Positions 13,147 to 29,492 of a stretch of 64,000 nt of DNA are shown one piece after another. Made by a program: the position numbers and the translations under genes. Position 1 is the stretch's first letter. Every line of letters starts with the position of its first letter. The notes beneath the pieces were generated by a model. The model was given only the letters and a program-made list of their open reading frames with translations, searched no databases and had not been told where the DNA came from. The stretch comes from Sporomusa sp. KB1 (lineage in GTDB: Bacteria > Bacillota > Negativicutes > Sporomusales > Sporomusaceae), in contig NZ_VLKC01000002.1 of NCBI RefSeq assembly GCF_007830295.1, forward strand, positions 4,896,675-4,960,674, read 5' to 3'.

Positions 13147-13176
13147 TAAAAACCCCCTGGCATTACGCTAGGGGTA
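13147..13176 (-). terminator. terminator at the end of the aco-lip operon
   Basis: On the minus strand ACCCCT and AGGGGGT pair around an 11-nt loop, followed by TTTTT. The hairpin overlaps the last codons of the gene at 13163-13726 and marks the end of the 16.3-kb operon. Confidence 0.7.
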
Positions 13177-13726
13177 AAGAAGAGTTATTAATGCCATTTA
13201 ATACTCGCCGCATAAGATCATTTTTTAGCCGGATCTGATTTTCAAAACTACCTTTGTAAGCTTTTTTCTCTGATCCAGCCTCATAGCATGTAGAATTATC
13301 CACATTAACAAGTATTCCTGGCAAGCCAATTCGTTCAAAATCCTGACAATGTTTGGTCCAAAAACGTTCACAACAGGTACCGAAAAAAACTTTGCAGCCG
13401 CTCTTTTTTAACATTTTCAACTTTTCTTCCAACATTTCATAGTTCTGGATCGTAATCGGCTCCATGCCATATTCATCTGCAAGTGTAAATGCCTCACCAA
13501 TATCGCATTGTCCGCAGCGTCCACACCCATCTGTATAACGGTATTTGCAGACCACTTTTTTCGCACAGTAAGGCAGCAAAAGGGGAATGGCTGCTTGCTG
13601 AAAAAGATCTTGTAATGTTGCCCAAACTCCGTCGTTAAAGCAATTCCCTACGACAGTAATATCCTTCATCTCTTCCTGATGAATACCAAGATCCATCAGC
13701 TGCGTCCTAAGCCCATGATCCTGCAT
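13163..13726 (-). CDS. DUF116 family cysteine-rich protein
   Basis: This 187-residue protein is of the DUF116 type, rich in cysteines. A cluster CKYRYTDGCGRCGQC lies near residues 60-75, with further pairs in FGTCCERFW, all compatible with a metal or Fe-S site. No function is established. It is the last gene of the operon, directly after the two LipS-like radical SAM proteins, which suggests a role in lipoyl assembly such as sulfur handling. That is inference from position only. I use the ATG at 13726 (GGAGGAG 9 nt upstream) rather than the GTG one codon earlier. Confidence 0.75.
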   Translation of the reverse strand: MQDHGLRTQLMDLGIHQEEMKDITVVGNCFNDGVWATLQDLFQQAAIPLLLPYCAKKVVCKYRYTDGCGRCGQCDIGEAFTLADEYGMEPITIQNYEMLEEKLKMLKKSGCKVFFGTCCERFWTKHCQDFERIGLPGILVNVDNSTCYEAGSEKKAYKGSFENQIRLKNDLMRRVLNGINNSSLPLA

Positions 13727-13773
13727 CACTAAAATCTCCTCCTGCTACAAGTTCATACCAGTATAGGGCTAAA

Positions 13774-14661
13774 CTAATCCGCTACAATACCGCAGCACGT
13801 TTCCAAATAGTTGATATCATAGCCGAGTGACTGCACGTAATCGACAGTTTCCCGTGCGGGATAGGCAATTGCGTTAAGGCCGGCATCCACTGCCAATCGT
13901 TCTATTGTGCGGGAATACAGGCCTGGCGGGCGTGCACAGCCTAACGCTATTGGGGTGTTAGGTAACAGCCGCCTGGCAGTAGTAAATATCTCAGCTGCTG
14001 CCGCTGCCGGCGGCGGTGCAACCTCGCCCATGGGCGTACTCCGCAAGGGATTTAGGATTACTAGCACCAAACTTGCAGCCCCTTCAGACGCCACCATCTG
14101 TAAAGCTTGATATTCACCGCGAATTTGGCCAAAATGAAGTCCAATGACAATATGGGGCGAGACCTTCAGGCCTGCCTGCCGCGCTATCCGCAAGCTGTTA
14201 TGATAGTCTTTTGGCGTACGCTGCAAATGATAAACATCGCGAATCGTATCACCATCCCCAATTAAATCAAGGGCTACCCGTGTTATGTTTGCTTGTGCTA
14301 ACAATTCAGCTGTTTCCGCCGTCAATAAACCGGGGTGGACTACTACTGAAAGGCCCATACCAGCCATTTCTTTTAGCGCGCCGGCAAATGGCTGTAACGG
14401 CACACTGCCGTCACTGCCCGCACCACCGCTAACTAACACGCCACGGCAGCCGCGGCTGCGCAAATCCGCAGCCAGACGAACAAGTAATTCCGGCTCGGTC
14501 GCTGATAACATATTTTGTAGTAGTCGCCCCTGGCAATGTTCACAATTGCATTGACACTGGGTTCCGGTAATACTAATGTTAACAAATGAATGGGCGCTAT
14601 TTTCGAAAAGACCATTATCATAGTGCCGTGAACCTGGGGCATAAAAAGCGATTTTAGTCAT
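13774..14661 (-). CDS. radical SAM protein, LipS2-like lipoyl synthase partner
   Basis: This 295-residue radical SAM protein has the CxxxCxxC cluster embedded in QCQCNCEHC (about residues 36-43) and a TIM-barrel-like remainder (VLVSGGAGSDG, IVIGLHFGQ). The C terminus carries LETCCGIVAD. Its start overlaps the end of the preceding radical SAM gene by 8 bp. The pair next to two lipoate ligases, a GGR-like flavoprotein and two lipoyl carriers is the gene set of the LipS1/LipS2 pathway, in which two radical SAM enzymes jointly insert the two sulfurs into an octanoyl group. Which of the two is LipS1 and which LipS2 I cannot prove from sequence alone. Confidence 0.72.
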   Translation of the reverse strand: MTKIAFYAPGSRHYDNGLFENSAHSFVNISITGTQCQCNCEHCQGRLLQNMLSATEPELLVRLAADLRSRGCRGVLVSGGAGSDGSVPLQPFAGALKEMAGMGLSVVVHPGLLTAETAELLAQANITRVALDLIGDGDTIRDVYHLQRTPKDYHNSLRIARQAGLKVSPHIVIGLHFGQIRGEYQALQMVASEGAASLVLVILNPLRSTPMGEVAPPPAAAAAEIFTTARRLLPNTPIALGCARPPGLYSRTIERLAVDAGLNAIAYPARETVDYVQSLGYDINYLETCCGIVAD

Positions 14662-15727
14662 GCCATATCTGTCCTTTAACCGTATTCATATCCTGCTTTT
14701 CTGGCAGAAAAGGATAATTACGCAAATTAGGACCAGGACGCTCATTACCGTATGGACGGTTACAGGCTACACAACCGTCCCGGTTAGGACAACCTGATGT
14801 CATAAACGGTTTCCCCTGGGCCAGGTCATCCCCCAGTAACTCCTCCAGCGGCTGCCCAAAGCTCATAATTTTACCTTTGGAATCAAACTTGAATTCACCA
14901 AGCGTTATCTGTTTATTGTTAAATAGGTACGCGGCTAATTGGATACGCCGGTACTGACCATAAGACGGCGGCTCGTGGTTACTGAGCAAACTACCTGGTT
15001 CGGGACAAAAGGAAAATAGATGCACCTGAGCACCAGCAACACTAGCTTGACTGATGGTCTCGACCATAGCCTGCTCGGTTTCTCCCAAGCCGACAATCAA
15101 ATGTACACTGACATGATCTCGCCCAAATACCCTGACAGCTTGCTTTGCTGCTGTCCAGTAGGTTTCCCAGCGATGCGGTCCGCCTACAGCCGGTCCGCGC
15201 ACGGCTGCAAACAGTTCCGGAGTAGCAGCATCAATGGCTACACCAACACAATCTGCGCCTGCCGTCTTTAGCTCCTGAAAAAATGTCCCGGCATCAGGTA
15301 CTACCGTCGGCGATACTAACACACTAATTGGTAAGTTTGTTGCGCTGCTAAGCCTCCTGACAATATTCACGCAGTCGCCCGGCGCTTGGGGATGAGTAAT
15401 CATTGATATACAAATGCGGCCTAACCGTTGCACTTTAGCCGCTATCTCTTGCTGTGGTTTGACTAAAATATCAATAATAGCAGACAAGTTATAAACTGGC
15501 CATTTTACTCTAATAAAGGTATTTTCCTCTGGCTCTGTTTTGCGTTCCCTGGCTAACCCGCAGTAGCTGCAGTTTGCCCGGCACCCATTCTGATAAGTCA
15601 TAAGCAAATTTAAACTTCCCGGATAGGCGTTACGATAAAAACTTCCCGGCTCCAATCCTAACGCCATAGCACCAGCCAAACTTGTCTGTACAAAATCCGG
15701 ACTTTCCTGCTTTTCGATAGTATCCAT
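14654..15727 (-). CDS. radical SAM protein, LipS1-like lipoyl synthase partner
   Basis: This 357-residue radical SAM enzyme has CRANCSYC as the CxxxCxxC motif (about residue 53-60). A C-terminal cysteine group, SGCPNRDGCVACNRPYG, could hold an auxiliary Fe-S cluster, as expected for a sulfur-inserting enzyme. The ATG at 15727 follows GAGGAGG. It is translationally coupled to the next radical SAM gene. Biotin synthase and related enzymes share the general layout, but no biotin genes are nearby. The context of lipoyl carriers and ligases favours lipoyl synthesis. Confidence 0.72.
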   Translation of the reverse strand: MDTIEKQESPDFVQTSLAGAMALGLEPGSFYRNAYPGSLNLLMTYQNGCRANCSYCGLARERKTEPEENTFIRVKWPVYNLSAIIDILVKPQQEIAAKVQRLGRICISMITHPQAPGDCVNIVRRLSSATNLPISVLVSPTVVPDAGTFFQELKTAGADCVGVAIDAATPELFAAVRGPAVGGPHRWETYWTAAKQAVRVFGRDHVSVHLIVGLGETEQAMVETISQASVAGAQVHLFSFCPEPGSLLSNHEPPSYGQYRRIQLAAYLFNNKQITLGEFKFDSKGKIMSFGQPLEELLGDDLAQGKPFMTSGCPNRDGCVACNRPYGNERPGPNLRNYPFLPEKQDMNTVKGQIWHD

Positions 15728-15766
15728 GACCGGCCTCCTCTATAACTCTACGTAGACACTAGCAAC

Positions 15767-16843
15767 CTATTGCATGTAATATTCGGGGAAAGTAATCCAA
15801 CTGCGCCGGATTAGCGTCGCAAATTCTGCGTTATTGCCTGTCCACTCTTGATTACGGCTAGCAAGTCGCTCACCAGCAATGGCAAACTGTCGCCCATATT
15901 CAGCCTGTATTGCCGCTGTATAGCTTTTTGCCAACTGCTCATTACCCTGCGCAATAGCTTGCATAACTGCTGTTGCCGCAAGTTGTCCACTAACCACAGC
16001 ATTCATAATCCCGCCGCCGGTAATCGGATGTGTGCAGCCAGCCGCATCACCAGCTACCAGCATGTGCCTGTTAGCTAAGCATTGCACTAAACCACCTGAC
16101 GGTATTAGTCCTCCGGTTGTCGCTGCCCCAGTTATAGCCTGCACTATCTGTCTTGCGACAAGGGTACGGCAAAAATCTGTCAGCAGTTCTTTTAACCGTC
16201 CGGTATGTGATGTATGGACAGCCAAACCGACATTGGCGGTTGTTCCTTTAGAAAACACCCAGCCATAGCCGCCATACCAAGCCGGATCAAAGTAAATCTC
16301 AGCATAATTCAGCGGTTTAACCAAAGTCAGTTCCCGCTGCAGCGCTATGCAGGTTTCACCTTGTTTATTACCTAACTGCTTGCTAATCAGCGAACGGGGG
16401 CCATCACAGCCAAGGATAAACGTTCCTGTAACCTCCTGCTGTTCGCCGCCGCACAAGAGCGTTACTACTGAGCCGTTGACATGTACAGCACGTACTCCGG
16501 TCATAAGGTTGGCCCCGGCAGCTACCGCTGCATCAGCCAACTCCTTATCCCATCGGCAGCGGTGCAGTACATAGCCAGGAGCTCGCACCACACTGGCTGT
16601 TTCGCCATTAATAAAGGTTTTAATCCCGTTTACTTGCTGCGCCACATCTATGGACCGCAGGCCAGCGTACTTAGTAATCATCCGGGGAACAAATTCCGCA
16701 CATTGCACATGATCACCAACACTTTGCCGCTGCTCTGCTATGAGCACCTGTAACCCAGTCTGGGCCAGCCGCCTGGCTGCTGTGCTACCGGCAGGACCAG
16801 CGCCAATAACTATAGCGTCATAGTGATCGCCTGTTTTTTTCAT
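15767..16843 (-). CDS. geranylgeranyl-reductase-family FAD oxidoreductase, LipT-like
   Basis: This 358-residue flavoprotein has the FAD-binding motif GAGPAGSTAARRL at the N terminus and the second motif GDAAGCTHPITGGG. The fold is that of geranylgeranyl reductases. No isoprenoid genes are around. In sHdr-type clusters a GGR-like protein (LipT) accompanies lipS1/lipS2 and is thought to supply electrons to them. The same neighbourhood here makes that the best reading, though a quinone- or lipid-directed role cannot be excluded. It is tightly packed between the Lpl gene (15-bp gap) and the radical SAM gene (39-bp gap). Confidence 0.75.
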   Translation of the reverse strand: MKKTGDHYDAIVIGAGPAGSTAARRLAQTGLQVLIAEQRQSVGDHVQCAEFVPRMITKYAGLRSIDVAQQVNGIKTFINGETASVVRAPGYVLHRCRWDKELADAAVAAGANLMTGVRAVHVNGSVVTLLCGGEQQEVTGTFILGCDGPRSLISKQLGNKQGETCIALQRELTLVKPLNYAEIYFDPAWYGGYGWVFSKGTTANVGLAVHTSHTGRLKELLTDFCRTLVARQIVQAITGAATTGGLIPSGGLVQCLANRHMLVAGDAAGCTHPITGGGIMNAVVSGQLAATAVMQAIAQGNEQLAKSYTAAIQAEYGRQFAIAGERLASRNQEWTGNNAEFATLIRRSWITFPEYYMQ

Positions 16844-16858: not shown

Positions 16859-17968
16859 CTAGTTTTTTCCGTGGTCTTTTTCTGTTTTTGCCTGCTCTAT
16901 CGCCAGCATAATAGCCTTGATAAAGTGTTCAGCAGCAATACCAGGAATTTCTACCTTATTGTTAACAAAGAAGTTATTAATTGTGGTAATAATATGCTGT
17001 TCATCAATTGGTGTATTTTTCAAAGTTGTTTCCAGGTCATTAATGGCTCTAGGCGGATAAGCAAAGAAATCACCACTAATAATTAGATATTTGATAACTC
17101 TGATGCCTGCATCCAGCCGCATTTGAATCCGTATGAGACCCCCTGGAGCTTTATAATTGGCAATGCAGTCAATCGTATTGATAAACGTACTATCTTTGCC
17201 GTAAATCCAGTCTTTGCTCTGGAAATACGGCAAGTACTTATTCAGCAGCTCGATCTCTTCGGTTATAAGTTCTCCGGGGCAAAAATCATACCCTAATGCT
17301 TCCCTGAGACCGGTCAAAATTGCTGACTTTATTTTACTATGCTCTGGAACATAGCCAATTTGTTCTGTAATGGAAGTCACCCGTTCCCGCATTGACTTAA
17401 CGGCCTTATCACTTAGTTTTTCCAAGGGAAACTGCAAAACCCGCAGCATTTCATCAACATCAAAATCAACCAATATACTACACTGAAAGACGAAGGAATC
17501 TGCTAGTTCGGTACCGCCAGTACCGGCAATTTTACGTCCAGCTATTTCAATATCGTTTACTGGCCTATAGGCTGCAGGCAGACCGAGGTTCTTTAGCCCC
17601 AGAGTCATTGCCTCACATAACAACTTATACATACTTTCTATTTTCCGGGGAATCCCGGGAGTGTTTTTTGCGGCATAGATCTCCCAACCTAACTCCAGCG
17701 GCCCCCAATATAAACTGCCACCACCTGTAATGCGGCGGTTGATATCAATCCCTTGTTGCTGACAATAAGGGACATTTACTTCCAGGAACGTGTTTTGATG
17801 CAATCCAACCAGTACACAAGGCTTAAACTGCAAAAACCGCACTGTGTTGGGAATCAATCCCTGACTATGGGCGTTCATTATGACTTTATCCAAAGCCATA
17901 TGCTCAGCAGCTGTACGGGGCGCAGAATCAAGCACCCTAAACACAGTGTTATTTTCTGTACTAGGCAT
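16859..17968 (-). CDS. lipoate-protein ligase-like protein, second copy
   Basis: This 369-residue protein has an LplA/LipB-type catalytic fold. It shows RRITGGGSLYWGP and the acyl-binding region VNDIEIAGRKIAGTGGTE, whose Lys is the expected catalytic residue. A C-terminal accessory part (about 240-330) fits an Lpl(AB)-like single chain. It transfers lipoyl or octanoyl groups onto carrier proteins. The start overlaps the end of the GcvH-like gene at 17961-18371 by 8 bp, so carrier and ligase are translationally coupled. That suggests this ligase serves that carrier. Confidence 0.82.
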   Translation of the reverse strand: MPSTENNTVFRVLDSAPRTAAEHMALDKVIMNAHSQGLIPNTVRFLQFKPCVLVGLHQNTFLEVNVPYCQQQGIDINRRITGGGSLYWGPLELGWEIYAAKNTPGIPRKIESMYKLLCEAMTLGLKNLGLPAAYRPVNDIEIAGRKIAGTGGTELADSFVFQCSILVDFDVDEMLRVLQFPLEKLSDKAVKSMRERVTSITEQIGYVPEHSKIKSAILTGLREALGYDFCPGELITEEIELLNKYLPYFQSKDWIYGKDSTFINTIDCIANYKAPGGLIRIQMRLDAGIRVIKYLIISGDFFAYPPRAINDLETTLKNTPIDEQHIITTINNFFVNNKVEIPGIAAEHFIKAIMLAIEQAKTEKDHGKN

Positions 17969-18371
17969 TTTCTTTCATGTCCTCGGCTAGCCATGCCTGC
18001 ACAGCTGCGGCTGACATCAAGCTGTCAAGTTCAGCGGGGCGGGAAAGCTCAATTTCTGCAAACCAGCAGTTATACGGCAACTGACTGATTAACGCCGGAC
18101 TTGCGGTTACCATATCATTGACTTTGGTTACTAGACCACTTACTGGCGCGTAAACACGCCCGACCCATTTTCCTGCTTCCAGTGACCCGCAAGTTCCCCC
18201 CCCCTCAACAGCAGTTCCCACTGTTGGTAAAACCAAATATAAAACATCACCAGTAATATCCAGACCGTAGGGCGTTAATCCAAACAGCACTTTGTTGCCA
18301 ACCCGTTTAATCCACTGGTAATGGGTATCATACAATAATTCTTCAGGAAAACTCCATTTGCTTACGCTCAT
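17961..18371 (-). CDS. GcvH-like lipoyl carrier protein (LbpA-like), second copy
   Basis: This 136-residue protein has the hybrid motif fold of glycine cleavage H protein. The likely lipoylation site is Lys68 in LEAGKWVGR, in place of the usual SVKA. No gcvT or gcvP is present, so a role in glycine cleavage is unlikely. It lies directly between the Fe-S subunit gene (18402-19571) and a lipoate ligase gene. In sulfur oxidisers the related LbpA carries bound intermediates to an Hdr-like complex, and a similar shuttle to the neighbouring flavin/Fe-S enzyme is inferred. Confidence 0.8.
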   Translation of the reverse strand: MSVSKWSFPEELLYDTHYQWIKRVGNKVLFGLTPYGLDITGDVLYLVLPTVGTAVEGGGTCGSLEAGKWVGRVYAPVSGLVTKVNDMVTASPALISQLPYNCWFAEIELSRPAELDSLMSAAAVQAWLAEDMKENA

Positions 18372-18401: not shown

Positions 18402-19571
18402 TTAGTTGTCTACAGCCATTAATAATAATTCAGCAACATCCATTACCTGCAAGGGCAGTTTTTCGGCCCTGGCTGCCTTTTCCAGCATTTGTTCACACTG
18501 CTGACAGGCAGATACGACGATGCCGGCTCCCGTCTCAGCCGCCTCTTTTATCCGTTTACCAGCAATGGCATCTGCCAAACCGGCATCTGCACCCTGGAGA
18601 TTTCCGCCACCGCCACAGCAGGTTGATTCTTCTCCACTAGTGGCCATTTCTACAAATTTGATTCCTGGAATACTGGTAATGATTTGCCGCGGCGGATTGA
18701 TAATGCCGCTGTTGCGCCCTAAATCACAGGGGTCATGGTAGGTCACTGTTTGGTTTAGTTCATTTGGCACTAACTTACCTGCAGCGATTAGCTCTGCCAG
18801 CATTTCCGTGGCATGGACCAGTCTAAATCCCAGACTCTCACCCAGCACCTCCGGATATACATGGCTCCAGACGTGATAGCAGGAAGCACAGCCAGTCACT
18901 AAGGTTTTGGCCCCCATCTGCCGTACCGTATCGACATTGTGCCGCGCAAATTCCGCTATCTCATCAGCATGCCCGGCTGCCAGCATGGGAAAACCACAGC
19001 ACCACTCTTCAGAACCCATTGTGGTATAGTTTACTCCTGCTTTTTGCAATAACTGTACCATGGCGACTGGAACCTGGGCTGCGCGGGGAAAAAAGGAAGA
19101 TACACAACCGACAAAATATACGACTTCCGCCTCTGGTTCCTGATCCAAATTCTCTGGTATTTCATCCAGCTCTTCCGCCCAGTCAAGTCTGGTTACATTG
19201 GCAAAGTTGGAAATATTCTTCTTGTCCTTCAGGTTATCTATCATTGCCGTATAAGCTGCAGGCGCCTGGCCGCCAGCTACCAGTTTAGCCCGTAAATCCT
19301 TCCATAATGACTGGAGATCAATCCTCGCAGCGCAAGCGCGCGTGCAAGCCCCGCACATTGTACACTGGGTAATTCTTTTAGCATATTCAGGACTAATAGT
19401 GGTCTCACTATTTCGGGCAAATAATTCCCGGGCTAGCGAAATCTTTCCGCGGGGAGCGGCTGACTCCCAGCCAATCTCCTTATATACCGGGCAGTCATTG
19501 CGGCAATTACCACATCTCCCGCAAATTAAGGATTCATCAATCAAATTTTTATAAAAGCTGCCCGTACTCAT
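18402..19571 (-). CDS. GlcF/HdrD-like Fe-S oxidoreductase subunit with two CCG domains
   Basis: This 389-residue protein has two ferredoxin-type clusters near the N terminus (CGRCGNCRNDCP and CTMCGACTRACA). Two complete cysteine-rich CCG domains follow: CCGFPM with GCASCYH, and CCGGGG with ACQQCEQM. This is the architecture of glycolate oxidase GlcF and of HdrD, which can handle disulfides through a non-cubane cluster. The start overlaps the end of the FAD subunit gene by 4 bp. A lipoyl carrier gene lies on each side of the pair, so dihydrolipoyl/lipoyl disulfide chemistry at the CCG sites is an attractive inference. Confidence 0.85.
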   Translation of the reverse strand: MSTGSFYKNLIDESLICGRCGNCRNDCPVYKEIGWESAAPRGKISLARELFARNSETTISPEYAKRITQCTMCGACTRACAARIDLQSLWKDLRAKLVAGGQAPAAYTAMIDNLKDKKNISNFANVTRLDWAEELDEIPENLDQEPEAEVVYFVGCVSSFFPRAAQVPVAMVQLLQKAGVNYTTMGSEEWCCGFPMLAAGHADEIAEFARHNVDTVRQMGAKTLVTGCASCYHVWSHVYPEVLGESLGFRLVHATEMLAELIAAGKLVPNELNQTVTYHDPCDLGRNSGIINPPRQIITSIPGIKFVEMATSGEESTCCGGGGNLQGADAGLADAIAGKRIKEAAETGAGIVVSACQQCEQMLEKAARAEKLPLQVMDVAELLLMAVDN

Positions 19572-21028
19572 ACCTGTTCCCCTCCTATTTTGCCCCTGTA
19601 CACCAGTGTGGTAGCTGCCAAGAAGTCCATGCTCAAACTAAACAACGCTGGATTCAAGAGCAAGGGAGCTTGATACACTTTACCAGGATTCATAATATTG
19701 TTAGGATCAAGTAGTTTTTTCCGATGTTTAAGCTCAGCCATCTCTGCTGCCGTGTGGCACCTGCTTACATAAGGTGTATTCCACAAACCGACACCGTAGG
19801 GGCACCCACCATGTTTGGCCCCAATATCATGCAATTTTTTTACTAAGGCCAATCCCTGCAGATAGCCTATGGTATCACGCTCATCCGCATTAAACATTGT
19901 CATAACCATAGCATGCTGAGCTGTTACAACATGCCCGTAGCTTTTTAGGCCGAGATTTTTTTTGTTTTCAAATAGTTCTATATCATGAAGATAGGCAGCC
20001 AGGCTGCTAATCGGCAACCAAATCTCGGCTCCAAGCAAGGAGGGGCCTTCTCTTTTTAAGACTAGAGAAAAAAAGCGGTGCTGCCACTCATGCTCGCCTT
20101 CTTCGCCTAAATCACCGGCATTTGCCATTTGCAAACATTTGGTATAATTCTTTTTCGCGGCTGCTGTTTCTGCTTGTGAACCATCCGCATCAAAAGCTAC
20201 CGTATAGGCTTTAGCAGTCCGCTTACTGGCCATCCCCAGCCTGTAACGTAACGCGTTACAGCCGGGATCGCTAAAGTGCAAATTAAAGGGGATTGCCGCA
20301 GATAGTACTGCACCTTCGATAAATCGCTGCATTTGCCTGGCATCTTGCAATTCGGCTAAGCCATGCCACTCGGTTTCTGGCTGTGGGCGAACCCTTAATT
20401 CTATTTCAGTCACTACTCCTAAGGTTCCCTCAGAACCAGCCAACCAGGAAACCGGCGGCTTACTCATGGCGTTTAATTCTTGCACACTGCCATCAGGCAT
20501 AACGGTCTGAGCCGAAATTACCTGGTCCACTACCGGACCGTACTTTAAGCTGCCAAGCCCGTATCCCATCATGACTAACCAACCGCCAACCGTTGCCGCC
20601 TGCGCACTGCTCGGGTATGAACAGGTAGCTAAGCCAAGGCGGTTGAGGGCGCGTTCCAGCTGCCACCAGGTCATACCTGCCCCGACCCGTACAATGTTGT
20701 TCTCTTTCTCAACTGCCACTATCTGATCCAAACCGTTTAGATCAACCAGTATCCCTTTGCGCGTACATACCGTATTAAAGTAGACAGTAGAGCCCCCCGC
20801 CCGTGCGGTCAGGGGGATTCGCTTCTCAGCTGCCAGCTTGGCAATGCCAGCTACTTCTGCGGTATTTTGGGGCCTGATCACAATATCCGGCAGAGTATCG
20901 GCAATAGGGTTAACCAAAAAATCCGGCACAGGTGCCAAATCACGTTGATAAAAGCCGCGCTCGAACAGATCTGTAGTTGCACGGTCACCAAAGGCAGTCT
21001 TCAAATTTTCCAATATTTGAGCGTCCAT
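19568..21028 (-). CDS. GlcD-like FAD-binding oxidoreductase
   Basis: This 486-residue protein is of the FAD_binding_4 / FAD-oxidase C family, as in glycolate and D-lactate dehydrogenases. The FAD segment includes IVIRPQNTAEVAGIAKLA and PLTARAGGSTVYF. The C-terminal part holds HGGCPYGVGLWNTPYVSR and a final LDPNNIMNPGK. It pairs with the GlcF-like subunit. No EtfAB genes are adjacent, unlike the lactate dehydrogenase/Etf complexes of acetogens. The electron acceptor is therefore open, and the flanking lipoyl proteins are the most obvious partners. The substrate is unknown. Confidence 0.85.
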   Translation of the reverse strand: MDAQILENLKTAFGDRATTDLFERGFYQRDLAPVPDFLVNPIADTLPDIVIRPQNTAEVAGIAKLAAEKRIPLTARAGGSTVYFNTVCTRKGILVDLNGLDQIVAVEKENNIVRVGAGMTWWQLERALNRLGLATCSYPSSAQAATVGGWLVMMGYGLGSLKYGPVVDQVISAQTVMPDGSVQELNAMSKPPVSWLAGSEGTLGVVTEIELRVRPQPETEWHGLAELQDARQMQRFIEGAVLSAAIPFNLHFSDPGCNALRYRLGMASKRTAKAYTVAFDADGSQAETAAAKKNYTKCLQMANAGDLGEEGEHEWQHRFFSLVLKREGPSLLGAEIWLPISSLAAYLHDIELFENKKNLGLKSYGHVVTAQHAMVMTMFNADERDTIGYLQGLALVKKLHDIGAKHGGCPYGVGLWNTPYVSRCHTAAEMAELKHRKKLLDPNNIMNPGKVYQAPLLLNPALFSLSMDFLAATTLVYRGKIGGEQV

Positions 21029-22603: not shown

Positions 22604-23279
22604 CTATACAGTCCTCCTGCACCGGCAATAGCTGGACGTTAAACACAGCAGAAAATTGTTGCTCTAACTTACCCCTGACCTCATCAAGACTGGTATCGAT
22701 ACCGAAATCCCGCATAGTTGCCACTGGGCGGTTGGTGATGCCACAGGGGTTGATTAAACTGAAATACCACATATCAGGATTGACGTTTAAAGAGAATCCG
22801 TGTATGGATACCCAGTTGCGGACACCAATGCCAATCGCGGCGATCTTCCCCTTCTCGGTCCAAACGCCAGTCAAACCAGTTTCCCGGAAACTACTAATGC
22901 CATACTCAGCCAGTGTCCTGATAATTACTTCTTCCAGCATCCAGGAATAGCGGTGTAAATCCTGTCCATGCCCCTTTAGGTCAAGCACCGGATAGCCTAC
23001 CAATTGACCGGGGCCATGGTAGGTTACATCACCGCCCCGATCTACTTCAATAACCTCAAGTCCGGCTGCTAACAAGGTTTCCGGTGATGCTTTAACATTA
23101 TCCTGGCTGCCAGAACGTCCCATGGTATACACAGGATCATGCTCTAGTAATATCAGGGTATCGTCACCACGGCCGCTGCGGCGAACAGACGAAATTTCCT
23201 GCTGTAATTTCCACGCAGCCACATACGGAGTTCGTCCTAATAGTAACAGCTTACAGATCTTAGAACAGCTCGTCGCCAC
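22566..23279 (-). CDS. lipB: octanoyl-[acyl carrier protein]:protein octanoyltransferase LipB
   Basis: LipB moves octanoyl groups from ACP onto lipoyl domains. Seen are VTYHGPGQLVGYPVLDL, the catalytic Cys in LINPCGI and the conserved Lys in GKIAAIGIGV. I prefer a GTG start at 23279 with GGAAGG 5 nt upstream; it overlaps the end of the DUF6506 gene by 20 bp. A TTG further upstream would add residues that are only antisense-like to that gene. It works with LipA encoded two genes upstream. Confidence 0.9.
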   Translation of the reverse strand: MATSCSKICKLLLLGRTPYVAAWKLQQEISSVRRSGRGDDTLILLEHDPVYTMGRSGSQDNVKASPETLLAAGLEVIEVDRGGDVTYHGPGQLVGYPVLDLKGHGQDLHRYSWMLEEVIIRTLAEYGISSFRETGLTGVWTEKGKIAAIGIGVRNWVSIHGFSLNVNPDMWYFSLINPCGITNRPVATMRDFGIDTSLDEVRGKLEQQFSAVFNVQLLPVQEDCIDELIPARTHAVG

Positions 23280-23559
23280 TTTTGCCTTCCAGCCCGGGGT
23301 GAATATCAAAGCGGACCACACCGACAACAGCTCTGTTGTTAACGGCTTTTTTCACCGCTGCGACCCCTTCATGCCCGAAACCAGCGCAGAGTTCAATTGC
23401 GCCAATTCCCTGTTCAACCAGTTCTTCAACTACTTTCACGGCTGACTTATAGTCGCCTACTCCCACGACTGTCAATTCCACAGCAGGCGTGGCGATGATT
23501 GACCTGTGCTGTTTACTATTGGCCTCTGGTGCAATAAAAACAAATGCTGCTTTAAGCAT
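23260..23559 (-). CDS. DUF6506 family small protein
   Basis: This 99-residue protein has a compact alpha/beta pattern (AAFVFIAPEA, VELTVVGVG, GIGAIELCAGFGHEG). It resembles the DUF6506 family, which has no known function. It lies between lipA and lipB and overlaps lipB, so it may be tied to lipoylation, but nothing in the sequence shows this. The ATG at 23559 has a GGGG-type ribosome site. Confidence 0.72.
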   Translation of the reverse strand: MLKAAFVFIAPEANSKQHRSIIATPAVELTVVGVGDYKSAVKVVEELVEQGIGAIELCAGFGHEGVAAVKKAVNNRAVVGVVRFDIHPGLEGKSGDELF

Positions 23560-23592: not shown

Positions 23593-24462
23593 CTAAATAG
23601 ACAGGTGACCAAGTTTCTCAAAAGAAGATTCAGCATGATACGAACTGCGAACCATGGGTCCGGAACTTACTTGGGAGAAACCAATTTTAAAAGCTTCTTC
23701 CTGGAGCCATTGAAAAGTATCAGGGTGAATATATTCGACGACAGGTAAATGCTCTGCTGACGGGCTAAGATACTGACCCAAAGTGAGCATTTGGCAGCCA
23801 GCCGCAAATAAATCTTTCATTACGACAAGGACTTCCTCCGTTTTTTCACCTAAACCCAGCATTAAACCGGATTTTGCCAGTGCCCCCCCGCCGCTTTGGC
23901 GTACCCGCTTAATTAATTCTAAGGACCTGGCGTATATGGCCTGAGGTCTTACAGTAGAGTACAATCGTGGTACGGTTTCAATATTATGGTTAAGAATATC
24001 GGGCTTAGCATTCAATACTGTCTGTAACGCTTCCTTACTCCCCTTAAAGTCGGGAATAAGAACTTCGATTGCTGCCTGCGGCAATTGTTCTCTGATCGCC
24101 CGGATGGTGGAGGCAAAATGTCCTGCCCCCCCATCACTGAGATCATCCCGGGTAACAGATGTGACAACAACATGCTTTAAACCTAAATGCTTGGCCGTAC
24201 TGGCTACCATCCCGGGTTCATTAGCATCAACAATATCAGGAATACCATGACTTACAGCACAAAACCGGCAGTTACGGGTGCAGCTATTTCCCAGAATCAT
24301 AAACGTGCATGTTTGATTTTTAAAACACTCACCAATATTCGGACAGTCTGCGCTTTCGCATACAGTATGCAAATGTCCTTGTTCCAACAGTGTTTTCATC
24401 TGATCAAGCGCTGACCCCTCAGGCAAAGGTAAAGTCAACCAGGCTGGTCTATCTGTATTCAT
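23593..24462 (-). CDS. lipA: lipoyl synthase LipA
   Basis: LipA inserts two sulfurs into octanoyl-lysine on lipoyl domains. The auxiliary cluster motif (CESADCPNIGEC), the radical SAM CTRNCRFC motif and the C-terminal RSSYHAE with the cluster-ligating serine are all present. The length of 289 residues is typical. It follows acoC and the AhpD-like gene and is clearly meant to lipoylate AcoC. The same operon carries a second, LipS-like pathway downstream. Confidence 0.95.
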   Translation of the reverse strand: MNTDRPAWLTLPLPEGSALDQMKTLLEQGHLHTVCESADCPNIGECFKNQTCTFMILGNSCTRNCRFCAVSHGIPDIVDANEPGMVASTAKHLGLKHVVVTSVTRDDLSDGGAGHFASTIRAIREQLPQAAIEVLIPDFKGSKEALQTVLNAKPDILNHNIETVPRLYSTVRPQAIYARSLELIKRVRQSGGGALAKSGLMLGLGEKTEEVLVVMKDLFAAGCQMLTLGQYLSPSAEHLPVVEYIHPDTFQWLQEEAFKIGFSQVSSGPMVRSSYHAESSFEKLGHLSI

Positions 24463-24471
24463 GTAATCCCA

Positions 24472-24813
24472 CTATTCGAAAGCTTCGAGAGCTTTAAGCA
24501 CAGTTGTGGCCACATAGGCCATAGCCGGTGATCCACCAAAAGCTACCGCGACTGCCGCTGCTTCCAATATTTCCTCTCTGGATGCACCCTCTGATAAAGC
24601 ATTTTTTACATGGATATTGATGCAATACTCACAGCGCACGGCTACAGCAATACCGATGCCAATAAGTTCTTTATACTTGCGCTCTAACTCACCTTCCACA
24701 TAGGCTGCCTGATCCATTTGTACAAAGGCAGCAACCAACTCAGGGCTCTCACTTTGCAGATTACCAATCCCCGCCTGCAGATCATTTACTAAATCAACAC
24801 TATCTCCTGACAT
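24472..24813 (-). CDS. AhpD-like (carboxymuconolactone decarboxylase family) thiol redox protein
   Basis: This 113-residue protein contains the full AhpD signature E-x11-C-x2-C-x3-H (from KELIG to CEYCINIH). AhpD of Mycobacterium uses this dithiol to take electrons from a lipoylated E2. Its position between acoC (E2) and lipA, in an operon with no E3, suggests that it reoxidises dihydrolipoyl groups. That is inference. I use the ATG at 24813 (GGTAGGG upstream); an earlier ATG has no ribosome site. Confidence 0.85.
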   Translation of the reverse strand: MSGDSVDLVNDLQAGIGNLQSESPELVAAFVQMDQAAYVEGELERKYKELIGIGIAVAVRCEYCINIHVKNALSEGASREEILEAAAVAVAFGGSPAMAYVATTVLKALEAFE

Positions 24814-24875
24814 ATATATATCCCTACCTTTTCTAAAAAATATATTTTTCATCGAATTAATGATTATTTCCTAAT

Positions 24876-26072
24876 TTAAATGAAAATTTTGTGAGGCTGC
24901 TCTATCAACTTCATTACCAAAGCCAGGAATTCTGCTGCCGGAGCCCCGTCAATCACCCGGTGGTCAAAGGCCAATGACAGTCCCATAATTGGCCGGATTA
25001 CGATCTGGTCGCCAACTACAACCGGAGTCTTCACTGTCCGGCCAACTCCTAATATCGCTGATTCCGGCTGATTGATAATGGGGGTAAAGTAATCAACAGA
25101 ACCATAGCCGCCAAGATTAGTAACCGTAAAACTACCGCCAGTCATCTCTTCGGGATCCAGTTTATTTTTCCGGGCACGTTTCGCAAAGTCCTTAATTTCC
25201 TTACTGATGTCAGCTAAACTTTTTTTGTTGGCATTTCTCACTACCGGTACCACTAGACCATCAGGAATTGCGATAGCTACGCCAACATTGACATCTTGCA
25301 ATACTTTTATTTCCTCACCACTTAGCGTACTGTTAATTCGCGGATAGAGTTCCAATGCTTTAGCGATAGCTTTGACCAGCATATCGGTTACTGAAATCTT
25401 ATCGGCATCCTTAACGTCGCTATTGATAGTAGAACGTAAGGCTAGCAACGCTGACAAATCCACACCGACGTGCTGCGTAACTTTCGGGGCAATCGTCCAG
25501 CTATTGGCCATATTCTCGCCAATCGCCTGACGCATTCCTTCATAAGGAATAACTTCAAGAGTAGGCCGCTCATCAGCTCCCATACTCATTTCTTCTATGG
25601 CTTTTTCCACATCTTCTTTGACTATCCGGCCTTCAGGGCCTGTGCCAACTATCAGCGTGTAATCTACACCATTTTCTTGGGCCAAAGCACGGGCAGACGG
25701 AGAAATTTTTACCTTCGCGCCATTTGCGGCGTTAACTGTTTTTTGCACTCCTGGCTGACTAGCAGCAGCTTTTGCTGCCGGGGCTGCGCTGACACTACTA
25801 GCAGCTGTTGATAATACGGCGCTGATATCTTCGCCTGCATCCCCCATAACTCCCAGCAAACCGCCTACTGGCAGCTTAGCTTTCTTGTCAGCAACAATTT
25901 TGAGCAAAATCCCATCAGTCGGGGCATCAATTTTATTCGCGATTTTATCTGTCATAACTTCCAGGAGAGCTTCCCCTTTTTTGATGGTGTCTCCCTCTTT
26001 TTTTAACCACTTACCTACAGTACCTTCCTTCATGGACAATCCTAGTTTTGGCATATTAATTTGTGTTGCCAT
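24876..26072 (-). CDS. acoC: acetoin dehydrogenase E2, dihydrolipoyl acetyltransferase
   Basis: This 398-residue E2 has a lipoyl domain (residues 1-76) with Lys43 in VMTDKIAN. An Ala/Pro-rich linker and a peripheral-subunit-binding domain follow (about 122-160, SPSARALAQENGVD), then a catalytic core ending with DHRVIDG. It passes the acetyl group from AcoAB to CoA. The PSBD normally docks E1 and E3, yet no E3 gene is present in the operon. AAGGAGGAG precedes the ATG. Confidence 0.93.
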   Translation of the reverse strand: MATQINMPKLGLSMKEGTVGKWLKKEGDTIKKGEALLEVMTDKIANKIDAPTDGILLKIVADKKAKLPVGGLLGVMGDAGEDISAVLSTAASSVSAAPAAKAAASQPGVQKTVNAANGAKVKISPSARALAQENGVDYTLIVGTGPEGRIVKEDVEKAIEEMSMGADERPTLEVIPYEGMRQAIGENMANSWTIAPKVTQHVGVDLSALLALRSTINSDVKDADKISVTDMLVKAIAKALELYPRINSTLSGEEIKVLQDVNVGVAIAIPDGLVVPVVRNANKKSLADISKEIKDFAKRARKNKLDPEEMTGGSFTVTNLGGYGSVDYFTPIINQPESAILGVGRTVKTPVVVGDQIVIRPIMGLSLAFDHRVIDGAPAAEFLALVMKLIEQPHKIFI

Positions 26073-26100: not shown

Positions 26101-27096
26101 TCATATATTTCGATAACTATACCCTTTAGCAACTGCGGCCCGTAGTACTTCCTCCGCCTTTATCACTTTGGGGCCTTCAAACGTAAGTTTTATCTGGACA
26201 TCATCACCTGGCCGAACTTCCACTTCCCGTTCGCCATCTAGGGCGATTACACAAGGTGCCGCCACTTCAATTACTTCATCCACATTAATATAATGATAAT
26301 TCCGGACTGGTACCTTCTCATTGAGGCCTGGTGCAATTGGTGCACGTACCTCGAGATTTCCCGGGCCAATCTCAATCACCAGGCCCAAATCATCATAAGG
26401 TGTTACTGGTGCCAGGTTACCGGCAATGGACGCTATGCCAATGTTATGCGGCTCACCTCTGGTAACGACAATCTTGCTTATGCGTTCGGCATTCCAAACT
26501 GCGCGTGAGCCAATAAAGCTGTCATTAAGTACTACAGCATCTACAAGGGCAATATCTACCGGCTCACCATTTTTATAAATAATCAGCTTTTTACTAGGGT
26601 TAATAGCTGGAGCCCCAGTTACTAATCCCTGCGCCACAACTCCGGCCGCCAGGCCGGCAATCGTGCTCTCAATCATGGTTGGAAAAACATTGTTAGTGCC
26701 AGTGGAAATGGGAAGAAGAGGAACATCCCGACATCCTTTTGCTACCATCCGGTTTGTTCCATCACCGCCCAAGGTAACTATACAGGCAACGCCGCTTCTA
26801 GCCATAACCTCTGCTGCATAAAAACTATCAATTTGCGTACCACTTAGGCATATATCTGCCTGGACAATTTCGATATCCGGACGATCACGGCTGCAAATAC
26901 TATCAGCCGCACCGGGGACAATCCCGTAATATTCCGGCATATAGACAATCTTTTTAATACCGCTTGCAGCCAAGCTCAAAATCAGCCGGCGCACAATATT
27001 GACTTTCTCCTGATTATCAAAGATCGTGCCATACGCTACCAGACGGCGAATATCTTTACCTGATGCCGGATTAGCAATGATACCAACCTGCCTCAT
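26101..27096 (-). CDS. acoX: AcoX, ATP-NAD kinase family protein of acetoin operons
   Basis: This 331-residue protein belongs to the NAD kinase superfamily, with the GGDGTNR motif near residue 105. AcoX is found in many acetoin operons, and its substrate is still not clear. I place the start at the ATG at 27096 (AGGG 4 nt upstream). Two GTG codons a few residues earlier lack a site. It sits between acoB and acoC. Confidence 0.88.
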   Translation of the reverse strand: MRQVGIIANPASGKDIRRLVAYGTIFDNQEKVNIVRRLILSLAASGIKKIVYMPEYYGIVPGAADSICSRDRPDIEIVQADICLSGTQIDSFYAAEVMARSGVACIVTLGGDGTNRMVAKGCRDVPLLPISTGTNNVFPTMIESTIAGLAAGVVAQGLVTGAPAINPSKKLIIYKNGEPVDIALVDAVVLNDSFIGSRAVWNAERISKIVVTRGEPHNIGIASIAGNLAPVTPYDDLGLVIEIGPGNLEVRAPIAPGLNEKVPVRNYHYINVDEVIEVAAPCVIALDGEREVEVRPGDDVQIKLTFEGPKVIKAEEVLRAAVAKGYSYRNI

Positions 27097-27123
27097 ACTT
27101 CCCTTCACCACCTATGCCATTAG

Positions 27124-28095
27124 TTAAAACAAACTCTTAACTGCGGCAATAATCTTTTCTTCACTTGGGATTACGCAGCTTTCCAGCGCCGGACTAAACG
27201 GAATTGGAGTGAAAGGCATTGCAACCCGTTTAATCGGAGCATCCAGAAGATCAAGTCCTTCTTCTGCAACCATGGCCGCAATTTCTCCGCCATAGCCGCC
27301 AATTTTAACTGCTTCATGCGCGATAACGAGTTTACCGGTTTTGCCCACAGACTTCAGGATACTTTCCGTATCGAGCGGTACAAGTGTACGAGGGTCTAAT
27401 ACTTCAGCATTAATTCCTTCCTGAGCCAGAGCTTCAGCTGCAGCCAAGGCCTTATGAACCATCCAGGACCAGGCTACAATGGTAACATCAGAACCTTCTT
27501 TCTTTATGTCAGCCTTGCCCAACGGGATAACGAAATCCTCTTCAGGCACATCACCTTTAATACCTAACAATTGCTTGTGCTCAATGTACATTACCGGATT
27601 ATTATCACGAACCGCTGCAGCCATTAACCCTTTGGCATCCGCAGGAGTCGAAGGCATTACCGTTTTTACGCCGGGGATATGGGTAAACCAGGCTTCCATG
27701 GATTGTGAATGTTGGGCTGCAGCACCCATGCCGCCGCCGCAGGGCGTCCTGAGAACCATCGGGATTTTGGCTTTGCCACCAAACATGTAGTGCATTTTTG
27801 CGGCCTGATTGAATAATTCATCCAAGCAAACGCCCATAAAATCAACAAACATAATTTCGGCAATCGGCCGCAAGCCGGCTGCTGCTGCACCTACCGCTGC
27901 ACCAACAATTGCGGTCTCACTGATAGGGGTATCAATTACCTGTCCAGGGAATTCCTCAAATAGACCAGCTGTTACACCAAAACAACCACCAAACTTACCA
28001 ACATCTTCACCCCAAATATATACGTTGGGGTCGCGCTTCATTTCCAGCCGCATTCCATCTCTAATGGCCTCAGCATATGTCATTTCTTTCATCAT
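27124..28095 (-). CDS. acoB: acetoin dehydrogenase E1 beta subunit
   Basis: This 323-residue transketolase-like subunit has MTYAEAIRDGM at the N terminus, the GEDVGKFGG segment and GGYGGEIAAM in the C-terminal domain. It forms the thiamine-diphosphate enzyme with AcoA. The start at 28095 is preceded by GGAGGGTG; an upstream in-frame ATG would extend over that site. Pyruvate dehydrogenase E1 beta is a close relative, but acoX and AcoR in the neighbourhood favour acetoin. Confidence 0.9.
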   Translation of the reverse strand: MMKEMTYAEAIRDGMRLEMKRDPNVYIWGEDVGKFGGCFGVTAGLFEEFPGQVIDTPISETAIVGAAVGAAAAGLRPIAEIMFVDFMGVCLDELFNQAAKMHYMFGGKAKIPMVLRTPCGGGMGAAAQHSQSMEAWFTHIPGVKTVMPSTPADAKGLMAAAVRDNNPVMYIEHKQLLGIKGDVPEEDFVIPLGKADIKKEGSDVTIVAWSWMVHKALAAAEALAQEGINAEVLDPRTLVPLDTESILKSVGKTGKLVIAHEAVKIGGYGGEIAAMVAEEGLDLLDAPIKRVAMPFTPIPFSPALESCVIPSEEKIIAAVKSLF

Positions 28096-28117
28096 GGTTT
28101 CACCCTCCAAAATTAGA

Positions 28118-29080
28118 TTATTCTGCGTAAACATCTGTTAACGCGTCTTCGGGGTTCGGATAAGGACTGTTTTGCGAGAAGAGGATTGCCGCGTCAATTT
28201 GTTTTTCGACTTTTGCCTTAATTTCCTCTAATTCTGATTTGGTGGCATATTTAAGTTCCACAAGTTTCTGCTCGAAGCGGGGTATCGGGTCTTTTTTCAG
28301 CCAGGCTGCTTGTTCTTCGGGATCTTTGTAGGCGCCAGGATCACCTTCAAAATGGCCGCGCCATCTCCAGGTTTTGCATTCCACTAAGCTGGGGCCGTCG
28401 CCTCTGCGGGCGCGTTCAATAGCCTCAGCGGCAGCTTCGTAAACAGCGATAACATCATTACCATCGACTACTACGCCTGGAATTCCATAGGCAGACGCGC
28501 GATCGGCAACATCAGTAACTTTCATATGGTCACGCTGGCAATTGGAGATACCGTACAGGTTATTTTCGCAGATAAATACTAAGGGAAGATTCCAGATAGT
28601 AGCCATATTTAAGGCTTCATGGAAGGTACCACGATTGGAGGCAGCATCCCCGAAAAAGCATACCGCTACCGAGTCGGTTTTCTTATATTTACAGGCAAAC
28701 GCCGCGCCTGCGGAAATTGGCTGCCCAGCACCAACAATGCCGTTTGCTCCCAAAATGCCTAATTCAACATCGGCAATATGCATTGAACCGCCTTTACCTT
28801 TGCAATAGCCAGTCGCTTTGCCGAATAATTCTGCCATCATCAAATCAACCTTGCCGCCTTTGGCAATTAAGTGTCCGTGTCCACGATGCGTACTGGTGAT
28901 ATAATCATTGTTTGTTAAACTAGCACAAACACCGGTAGCAACCGCTTCCTCCCCTAGGTATAGATGCACAAAACCAGGTAGTTGATTATCGGCAAATAAT
29001 TCTACAGCTTTACTTTCAAAGGCTCTTATGGTCATCATGGTTTCGTAAAAACCAAGCAGTTTCTCTTTCTTTAGTTCCAT
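28118..29080 (-). CDS. acoA: acetoin dehydrogenase E1 alpha subunit (TPP-dependent)
   Basis: This 320-residue E1 alpha carries the thiamine-diphosphate motif, seen as GDAASNRGTFHEALNMA followed by the ICENN segment. It cleaves acetoin to acetaldehyde and an acetyl group passed to AcoC. Translation most likely starts at 29080, where GGGGGGAG precedes the ATG. The thiC gene, needed to make its cofactor, shares the promoter type found upstream of this operon. Confidence 0.92.
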   Translation of the reverse strand: MELKKEKLLGFYETMMTIRAFESKAVELFADNQLPGFVHLYLGEEAVATGVCASLTNNDYITSTHRGHGHLIAKGGKVDLMMAELFGKATGYCKGKGGSMHIADVELGILGANGIVGAGQPISAGAAFACKYKKTDSVAVCFFGDAASNRGTFHEALNMATIWNLPLVFICENNLYGISNCQRDHMKVTDVADRASAYGIPGVVVDGNDVIAVYEAAAEAIERARRGDGPSLVECKTWRWRGHFEGDPGAYKDPEEQAAWLKKDPIPRFEQKLVELKYATKSELEEIKAKVEKQIDAAILFSQNSPYPNPEDALTDVYAE

Positions 29081-29126
29081 AATTCTCCCCCCACTTATTT
29101 TTTTACAGTAAATTCTGGCCAATCGA

Positions 29127-29492
29127 TCATGGTATGTCAATATATACCGTTAGTGCGGCTACAGCTACAACTATGGTGTCACCTTCCCCCAGCGCAGACA
29201 GATGTAAGCCCTGTACATGTAATCCCCCTGCCACAATTTCGGTGGTAACAGTGCCAAAGGGAACTGTTGCTTGTACTTCGGCTATATTGACTTTATCTGG
29301 CTCTGAACACCCGACCCGAATTTCAACAACCATTTGATTGGGGTCACTAATCCCGACAATGTCAAACAAACCACACAAACAGCTTCGTGACATGGCATCT
29401 TTGACTGCTCTTTGGGCTGCTTTGGTAAAATTGCCGCCATGCAAATCAGTGCCAATGCCTATCTCGACAATATATCGCCCACGTTTCATCAT
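29127..29492 (-). CDS. Lin0512 family protein, first gene of the aco-lip operon
   Basis: This 121-residue protein resembles the Lin0512 family (GIGTDLHGGNFTKAAQRAV, VEIRVGCSEPDKVN), which has no established role. Two ATG codons (29492, 29489) follow GGAGG and either may start. It is the first gene after the sigma-54 promoter at 29560-29577. It has been seen by family beside other small-molecule catabolic genes, but I cannot give a reaction. Confidence 0.78.
   Translation of the reverse strand: MMKRGRYIVEIGIGTDLHGGNFTKAAQRAVKDAMSRSCLCGLFDIVGISDPNQMVVEIRVGCSEPDKVNIAEVQATVPFGTVTTEIVAGGLHVQGLHLSALGEGDTIVVAVAALTVYIDIP

Follow-up and report, generated by a model that had tools for sequence, protein, structure and literature searches.

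Organization of the operon

Nineteen open reading frames (ORFs) lie close together on the minus strand of a 64-kb window from Sporomusa sp. KB1 (the window being the whole stretch of DNA analysed), running from 29492 to 13163 with lin0512 first and DUF116 last (Table 1). The intergenic distances range from -68 to +45 bp, and the 19 genes are one tight predicted operon behind an AcoR-type regulator. The genes that define an acetoin dehydrogenase are present, namely E1 alpha and beta, an E2 with a lipoyl domain, acoX, and the AcoR-type regulator, and the last two suggest that acetoin is the substrate. Judging from gene content and protein motifs, this is probably an acetoin dehydrogenase operon in which E3, the dihydrolipoyl dehydrogenase (Lpd), is replaced by a module of AhpD, GlcF and GlcD that reoxidizes dihydrolipoyl-AcoC.

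A preliminary description of this DNA had listed the same genes in the same order, with gaps of less than 50 bp or overlaps, and both order and spacing hold. Its family labels are borne out by Pfam and NCBIfam; the last block (lpl-GGR-radical SAM-radical SAM), which had gone unidentified there, corresponds to the Lpl(AB)-LipT-LipS2-LipS1 lipoate pathway. The true start of acoA is probably 20 codons further in than called, as in relatives.

Table 1. Genes and control elements of the operon region, in order of transcription (window positions)
Feature	Position	Strand	Basis or remark
AcoR/DhaR-type sigma-54-dependent regulator	29765..31783	-	best NCBIfam DhaR, 419 bits, below cut-off of 551
sigma-54 (-24/-12) promoter-like site	29561..29576	-	TGGCAT-N5-TTGCA, before lin0512
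lin0512 family	29127..29492	-	Lin0512 domain match
acoA, E1 alpha	28118..29140	-	E1 alpha domain match
acoB, E1 beta	27124..28134	-	E1 beta domain match
acoX, NAD-kinase-like	26101..27111	-	NAD_kinase-type match
acoC, E2	24876..26072	-	lipoyl, E3_binding and acyltransferase domains
ahpD, AhpD/CMD protein	24472..24852	-	CEYC...H site; proposed first electron acceptor from dihydrolipoyl-AcoC
lipA, canonical lipoyl synthase	23593..24462	-	domain match
DUF6506	23260..23559	-	domain match
lipB, octanoyltransferase	22566..23327	-	domain match
lplX, lipoate-ligase catalytic domain only	21515..22603	-	domain match
gcvH1, GcvH-like lipoyl carrier	21074..21493	-	QSGKW motif
glcD, FAD subunit (FAD_binding_4)	19568..21028	-	EHG and HxGDGNxH motifs absent
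glcF	18402..19571	-	two [4Fe-4S] motifs (Fer4) and two full CCG (HdrB-type) motifs
gcvH2, GcvH-like lipoyl carrier	17961..18371	-	EAGKW motif
lpl(AB), lipoate ligase with LplB-type C-terminal domain	16859..17968	-	domain match
lipT-like GG-reductase-family flavoprotein	15767..16843	-	LipT call by position and family only
lipS2-like radical SAM	14654..15727	-	LipS2 model 229.4 bits, cut-off 270
lipS1-like radical SAM	13774..14661	-	LipS1 model 226.5 bits, cut-off 230
DUF116	13163..13729	-	domain match
terminator-like hairpin	13151..13174	-	overlaps DUF116 stop, then five U

Absence of E3 from the genome

AcoC is the sole E2 match in the whole genome, which comprises 6,057,612 bases in two contigs (completeness 100, contamination estimate 9.49). 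The preliminary description had E3 missing from the operon and pointed to an lpd or acoL gene elsewhere in the genome as what would overturn its reading; no such gene was found, either in the operon or genome-wide. In the window, BLAST with two Lpd proteins gave no E3, the only match being one of 34 bits to the LipT-like flavoprotein that spans 7% of the query. Genome-wide, the Pyr_redox_dim domain (PF02852) occurs in two proteins only, both rhodanese-bearing and lacking CxxxxC and CxxC, and one with additional TusA and DsrE domains; these read as proteins of the CoA-disulfide-reductase type. The best genome-wide score to the Lpd model TIGR01350 is 135 bits against a cut-off of 408.8, whereas all seven near-complete congeners exceed 500 bits (in the eighth congener, whose genome is 58% complete, a fragment scores 174 bits). 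A CxxxxC pair placed as in Lpd was seen in none of the 20 frames inspected out of 36 Pyr_redox_2 matches.

Lpd in this genus is mostly associated with glycine cleavage, whose P-protein (GDC-P) was likewise not found in the genome. The site at which S. ovata carries gcvH-gcvPA-gcvPB-lipS1-lipS2-lpl-lpd is uninterrupted here, with the same neighbours and DNA that is 91-95% identical on both sides. Because the locus is continuous with these flanks, no assembly gap hides a gcv-lpd cluster at that site. In the case of S. silvacetica the cluster lies at a different site, and thus the empty S. ovata site shows absence there rather than a deletion event. One congener (G002) lacks an E2 match yet has both GDC-P and Lpd, and another (G003) is an exception to the general association, having a lipoyl-fused Lpd and no GDC-P. 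With a two-contig genome, one E2, no E3, and an intact and selected acetoin operon, the strain is a natural E3 knock-out.

AhpD and Lpd alternate beside E2 genes

Related loci were collected by scanning GTDB genomes with two exact peptide patterns taken from the GlcF alignment, which will not have caught every relative. At least 49% identity was found in 25 of the best 80 of 169 GlcF loci. Excluding four second copies (L077-L080, which duplicate the S. ovata, S. silvacetica, S. acidovorans and S. malonica loci L040, L041, L045 and L043) and including seven fetched loci gives a block set of 28 loci besides the window; short-contig loci were left uncounted where the contig ended.

Lpd is found in none of the 20 fetched loci that have acoC in this block, against scores of 295-732 bits in Lpd control loci; three of the 20 show Lpd matches of 38-40 bits over 7-8% of the query, located in LipT. 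AhpD is present in all 20, as a separate gene in 15, fused to AcoC in four, and with a stretch of N inside it in one. In the fusions, three from Desulfosporosinus and one from a Thermoanaerobacteraceae (L089, L092, L094 and L098), AhpD follows AcoC C-terminally and has CEYC...H in each case. The CxxC and downstream His of the CMD/AhpD core are kept in 18 of 18 stand-alone AhpD rows and in all four fused domains.

A control sample of 30 E2 loci, one per genome, was drawn from the 34 E2-bearing genomes among 120 of the class. Within about 1.5 kb of E2, 18 have Lpd (seen only over this distance on each side), seven have AhpD, five have neither, and none has both. When longer flanks were taken for the five, the counts became 19 with Lpd, 10 with AhpD, one with neither and none with both, six of the ten AhpD loci being Sporomusa, the window's own included. 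AhpD was also not found in the Lpd-bearing loci L139, L154 and L155. The alternation is seen in its simplest form in two operons: a minimal one (L210) reads lin0512-acoA-acoB-acoX-acoC-ahpD-glcD-glcF and shows neither lip nor gcvH genes in the 19 kb covered, as against acoA-acoB-acoX-acoC-lipB-lipA-lpd in L214. Lipoyl carriers and lip genes are thus common in the operon but not always present.

In an E2 tree built from 46 rows (23 AhpD, 22 Lpd, one neither), the labels need three changes, at least two of which are forced by starred branches. The AhpD-linked proteins fall into three types: Sporomusa/Syntrophomonas-type AcoC, the AhpD-fused Desulfosporosinus proteins, and one present in Pelosinus, G053 and G085. 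The tree is unpolarised as to whether AhpD or Lpd is the older state, and twelve of the thirty loci of the control sample were omitted from it because longer loci already supplied the same rows; like the LipS1 and GlcF trees it comes from a quick search, with support from the Shimodaira-Hasegawa-like approximate likelihood ratio test (SH-aLRT) only. The alternation, the contrast between L210 and L214, and the changes on the E2 tree together suggest that ahpD-glcD-glcF is a recurring substitute for E3. The same observations, with the AcoC-AhpD fusions, support the earlier inference that dihydrolipoyl-AcoC is reoxidized by a different route. In the preliminary description redox and lipoylation genes together filled the place of E3; this stands for ahpD-glcD-glcF, whereas the rest are a second lipoylation pathway and its carriers. 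An Lpd frame with one internal TAA stop was seen in two genomes (G053:C1:601216-602577 and G036:C3:15085-16443).

Could an atypical E3 be encoded elsewhere in the genome? A small thioredoxin-reductase-like protein serves as E3 in a glycine decarboxylase of an anaerobe, and three thioredoxin-reductase-like proteins with CATC occur in this genome, so that one of them might act on AcoC while AhpD and GlcDF do something else. None of the three lies near the aco genes. One adjoins a thioredoxin gene in what reads like a selenium/glycine-reductase neighbourhood, and the other two stand beside genes that read as rubredoxin-like and aldo-keto-reductase-like. A thioredoxin-reductase-type E3 would also leave the AhpD-AcoC fusion and the AhpD/Lpd alternation unexplained, and we consider it unlikely, although the best placed of the alternatives.

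Lipoylation genes and GcvH-like carriers

LipS1 and LipS2 are by far the top families for the two radical SAM proteins, though both scores fall below cut-off. The aco-linked LipS1 rows separate from 26 glycine-cleavage-linked LipS1 rows; the latter form one side of a branch, and the aco-linked rows need two changes. Glycine cleavage operons of related genomes (L158/L178, which are S. ovata, and L010-L034) carry another LipS1/LipS2 type, distinct from the aco-linked one, and in the S. ovata cluster LipS1/LipS2 occur together with Lpd. Four loci (L098:4795-6393, L045:1-1695, L044:1-1438 and L043:1-1473) encode DUF116 as a fusion with a lipoate ligase, which suggests a role in lipoylation for DUF116. 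In other cases, LipB/LplA-type and lipoyl-synthase radical SAM domains are joined in one protein of 513 residues (L089:6461-8002 and L092:6461-8002, with one of equal length in L094).

GcvH1 and GcvH2 belong to the GcvH family (PF01597), and the genome's GcvH matches are these two and one weak GCV_H stretch (L009) in a protein that looks like a biotin carrier. All 24 GcvH1 rows and all 25 GcvH2 rows retain the lipoyl lysine, in the context (E/Q)(S/A/T)GKW and not ESVKAVSD. In a GcvH tree with few columns and some long branches, GcvH1 (24 rows, support 100/99), GcvH2 (25 rows, 96/86) and glycine-cleavage H (10 rows, 100/99) each form one side of a branch. Identification as glycine-cleavage H was rejected on these separate clades and on the lack of a GDC-P match in the genome. 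Identification as LbpA proper was rejected as well: LbpA has a strictly conserved cysteine pair, one near each terminus (PMC6067878), and no conserved N-terminal cysteine was found in alignments of eight rows, the cysteines per protein varying from 0-3 in GcvH1 and 0-4 in GcvH2 rows. Family scans name none of the 19 operon genes as an sHdr protein. By family, motif and clade the two proteins are predicted LbpA-like lipoyl carriers.

GcvH1 clusters with GcvH-like proteins encoded near CCG proteins, some of them near multihaem cytochromes. GcvH-like proteins of this neighbourhood stand with CCG proteins and multihaem cytochromes c in Chloroflexota and Desulfocicer (L104, L118 and L154), and in L104 also with a cytochrome b561-type protein and an iron-sulfur flavoprotein of 1538 residues; a wider class of lipoyl-carrier electron-transfer complexes is possible.

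Many of the genes added to the operon are lipoylation genes, and GcvH can act as lipoyl donor to E2, as reported in the accessible text of an earlier study (PMC10332631). The carriers and ligases might then form a relay for lipoyl assembly only, like B. subtilis GcvH for E2, with GlcDF feeding LipA or LipS1/S2 and AcoC using another E3. The minimal operon L210, however, keeps ahpD-glcD-glcF where there is no lip or gcvH gene, and GcvH1 groups with CCG-linked proteins rather than with glycine-cleavage H; a relay of this kind is less likely still than a thioredoxin-reductase-type E3.

The GlcD and GlcF subunits

All 18 cluster-binding cysteines of GlcF, eight for the ordinary clusters and ten of the CCG type, are kept in 29 of 29 rows; PF02754 covers two stretches, with both CCG cysteine motifs complete in every row. 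Among solved chains, the GlcF profile matches HdrB and an iron-sulfur-binding reductase (9ojn); the top NCBIfam model for GlcF is TfrB, at a score below cut-off. In a tree of 84 GlcF rows, the 29 of the block lie together on one side of a branch (SH-aLRT 98). GlcD and GlcF are fused into one protein in two Dehalococcoidia (L139:8480-11119 and L155:8420-11137), in regions that also hold lipB, lipA, E1, E2 and Lpd genes. The fusion argues for a common function of the two subunits, although these operons also have Lpd.

Two CCG domains, ordinary clusters and a FAD_binding_4 partner are shared with HdrB, TfrB and GlcF/LctD-type FAD-CCG oxidoreductases, and the FAD_binding_4 partner matches listed include LctD and D-lactate dehydrogenase. 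Unlike these systems, GlcD here lacks the hydroxyacid-dehydrogenase motifs, and the partners would be lipoyl proteins in place of CoM/CoB, glycolate or lactate.

The EHG and HxGDGNxH residues serve catalysis, as is known from D-lactate dehydrogenase. Neither motif occurs in any of the 26 GlcD rows of the block, P-Y replacing E-H in every one, whereas both are present in 24 of 27 other GlcD-like proteins from more distant loci of the same scan. GlcDF as a lactate or glycolate dehydrogenase was rejected on this loss of motifs. The related proposal that GlcDF is a separate 2-hydroxyacid dehydrogenase co-metabolising products such as lactate or glycolate, with AhpD serving in peroxide defence, finds some support in GlcD being the best NCBIfam name of the FAD subunit (134 bits against a cut-off of 567.9). 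It is contradicted by the missing motifs, by the existence of AhpD-AcoC fusions, and by the family names of the 19 genes, among which no peroxidase occurs apart from AhpD itself, and is very improbable.

Distribution and selection

Six other Sporomusa species share this gene order, except that the ends vary. For instance, no stand-alone DUF116 gene was seen in L042-L045, DUF116 being ligase-fused in L043, L044 and L045. Beyond the genus, the block occurs in Pelosinus, Desulfosporosinus, Syntrophomonadaceae, Peptococcaceae, Syntrophaceae/Smithella, Desulfoluna and a spirochaete, among others. AcoC is encoded in 19 of the 21 block loci whose contig extends 5 kb upstream of glcF, the others being L096 and L097, and lipS1 and lipS2 occur in 19 of the 20 whose contig extends 6 kb downstream.

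The operon is under purifying selection. All 19 reading frames are open, and the ratio of nonsynonymous to synonymous substitution rates (dN/dS), taken against S. ovata and S. silvacetica, is 0.02-0.24 in 18 of the 19 genes in all three pairings, DUF116 standing at 0.38-0.58. The distances of the operon to S. malonica are near those of the two sisters that retain Lpd. In the case of acoA, dN to S. malonica is 0.078 with the called start, as against 0.057 and 0.060 in the sisters; without the 20-codon start extension there are 29 differences in 320, as against 30 and 32. Decay of the operon was rejected on the low dN/dS and on these distances. Lpd is absent here and present in all seven near-complete congeners, as would be seen if its loss had left a relic acetoin dehydrogenase without turnover, but open frames, low dN/dS and S. 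malonica distances close to those of Lpd-keeping sisters make a relic hardly credible.

A proposed mechanism and the points against it

By analogy with their families, AcoAB would split acetoin, free acetaldehyde and acetylate the lipoyl arm of AcoC, and AcoC would form acetyl-CoA. The dihydrolipoyl-AcoC left behind may then reduce the CxxC disulfide of AhpD, as the AcoC-AhpD fusions and E2-AhpD chemistry known elsewhere suggest. AhpD would pass two electrons to a CCG non-cubane cluster of GlcF, either directly or via GcvH1/GcvH2, and this cluster would oxidize the dithiol as HdrB/TfrB-family proteins handle thiols and disulfides. From the ordinary clusters of GlcF the electrons could run, more speculatively, to the FAD of GlcD and on to an acceptor such as electron-transfer flavoprotein (ETF), menaquinone or a ferredoxin-type carrier. 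By potentials, menaquinone or ETF could accept electrons at the level of lipoamide downhill. The lipoamide potential lies near -0.29 V (PMC6067878). LipB and LipA probably lipoylate AcoC, and the Lpl(AB)-LipS1/S2-LipT set, perhaps with LplX and DUF116, probably lipoylates both carriers.

Several observations weigh against replacement of E3 by the AhpD-GlcF-GlcD module. AcoC retains its E3_binding domain, although E1 can use this domain too; no acceptor gene lies among the 19 genes of the operon; and thioredoxin-reductase-like proteins with CATC exist in the genome. Lpd scores over cut-off in 16 of 21 block-bearing genomes scanned and in all six other Sporomusa with the block, so AcoC could share it there. 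Besides this genome, only the metagenome-derived G063 and G068 have neither Lpd nor GDC-P over cut-off, and G066, G071 and G074 have no Lpd over cut-off but at least part of GDC-P; all five of these genomes may be incomplete. GlcF-type proteins stand beside Lpd in the Dehalococcoidia L139 and L155 (where they are GlcD-fused) and in Desulfocicer L154, and a GlcDF-like protein is therefore not in itself exclusive with E3. Two loci, L096 and L097, have gcvH1-glcD-glcF and no acoC in the 10 kb upstream, and one acoABXC-DUF6506 operon (L211, G033:C38) has neither AhpD nor Lpd nearby. The short reach over which the 18 Lpd loci of the control sample were seen counts on the same side.

A broader reading is one that we favour with rather less confidence than the replacement in this operon: AhpD-GlcD-GlcF may be an undescribed and widespread non-orthologous replacement of Lpd, a non-cubane iron-sulfur dihydrolipoyl-protein oxidase on several E2 lineages of anaerobes. 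Such an enzyme would free complexes of the 2-oxoacid-dehydrogenase type from NAD+ and from the NADH sensitivity of E3, and would employ LbpA-like lipoyl proteins to carry electrons in solution, in a setting other than sulfur oxidation. An E3 is generally regarded as obligatory in lipoyl-dependent complexes, and the repeated alternation of AhpD and Lpd singles out one substitute that is amenable to testing in vitro. If this reading is true, anaerobes can run lipoyl complexes off the NAD+/NADH couple, a function is assigned to a GcvH-like protein family and to a branch of the LipS1/S2 enzymes, and a genome without Lpd need not mean a dead dehydrogenase complex.

Relation to known systems

The comparisons that follow draw on the accessible parts of the papers cited. 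The acetoin cluster acoABC(S)L of Pelobacter carbinolicus resembles the present operon in having E1 alpha and beta, E2, acoX, lipoyl synthase, lipB and an AcoR-type regulator (PMC3543383). P. carbinolicus has acoL (E3), whereas no E3 was found in Sporomusa sp. KB1 and ahpD-glcD-glcF stands in. Pelobacter also has a lipoyl carrier, LarG, and Lpd near the act operon, proposed as part of an electron-transfer pathway (PMC3543383). Elsewhere, NAD+ was assumed as acceptor for acetoin cleavage in Thermacetogenium (PMC3551663), and an adapted strain of S. ovata had lower transcripts of acetoin genes (PMC4632017).

In the case of sHdr-LbpA sulfur oxidation, GcvH-like carriers likewise occur beside CCG-type proteins and are served by a dedicated Lpl-LipS1/S2 pathway, and E3 is proposed to reoxidize LbpA (PMC6067878). 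The present operon differs in having no sHdr or TusA gene, in the missing LbpA cysteine pair, and in an acetoin E2 as partner. The gene set lpl(AB)-lipT-lipS2-lipS1 is common to this operon and the sLpl(AB)-LipS1/S2-LipT assembly, and it is already published that lipS1/S2 and the canonical lipoate genes are linked in several species of Sporomusa (PMC10332631). The words acetoin, glycolate and DUF116 do not occur in the main text of that paper, and E3 loss, AhpD and GlcDF are not treated in its accessible parts.

The closest likeness to the proposed first step is the Lpd/SucB-AhpD antioxidant chain of Corynebacterium, where Lpd/SucB is the preferred route for reduction of an AhpD-like protein (PMC10460364). 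In both, an AhpD-like CxxC protein exchanges (or here would exchange) electrons with a lipoylated E2. In Corynebacterium, Lpd and NADH drive electrons to AhpD and a peroxidase, whereas the operon here has no Lpd or peroxidase gene. No description of an E3-free acetoin dehydrogenase or of an AhpD-GlcD-GlcF module was found in the accessible parts of the open PMC literature, outside which most subscription papers lie, and the E3 substitute is possibly new in itself.

Control elements and neighbouring genes

An orthologue of the regulator is found at the equivalent position in five of the six fetched Sporomusa relatives, the exception (L044) having no acoR in front. A single sigma-54 promoter in front of the operon and one terminator at its end had been proposed previously, and a candidate for each is present. 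The sigma-54 site, with 10 or 11 of 11 matches, precedes lin0512 in all seven Sporomusa loci (the window and six relatives), where the intergenic stretch that holds it has a mean column identity of 59% (six of the seven loci); the motif by itself is commonplace, there being 15 sites with at least 10 of 11 matches to the consensus in the window, the operon's own included. At the other end there is a modest hairpin (-11.6 kcal/mol, z -1.6) followed by five U, but a terminator scan did not return it, and 14 of 200 shuffles were as good.

Beyond the hairpin, a PocR-MCP sensor gene (window 12069-13112) starts 50 bp past the DUF116 stop and may be cotranscribed with the operon. A PocR-MCP gene lies beside the operon in S. 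ovata as well, and S. silvacetica shows only a short frame of it. At the opposite end, just upstream of the regulator gene, lies thiC (window 31994-33295), a gene for synthesis of thiamine, the cofactor of E1.

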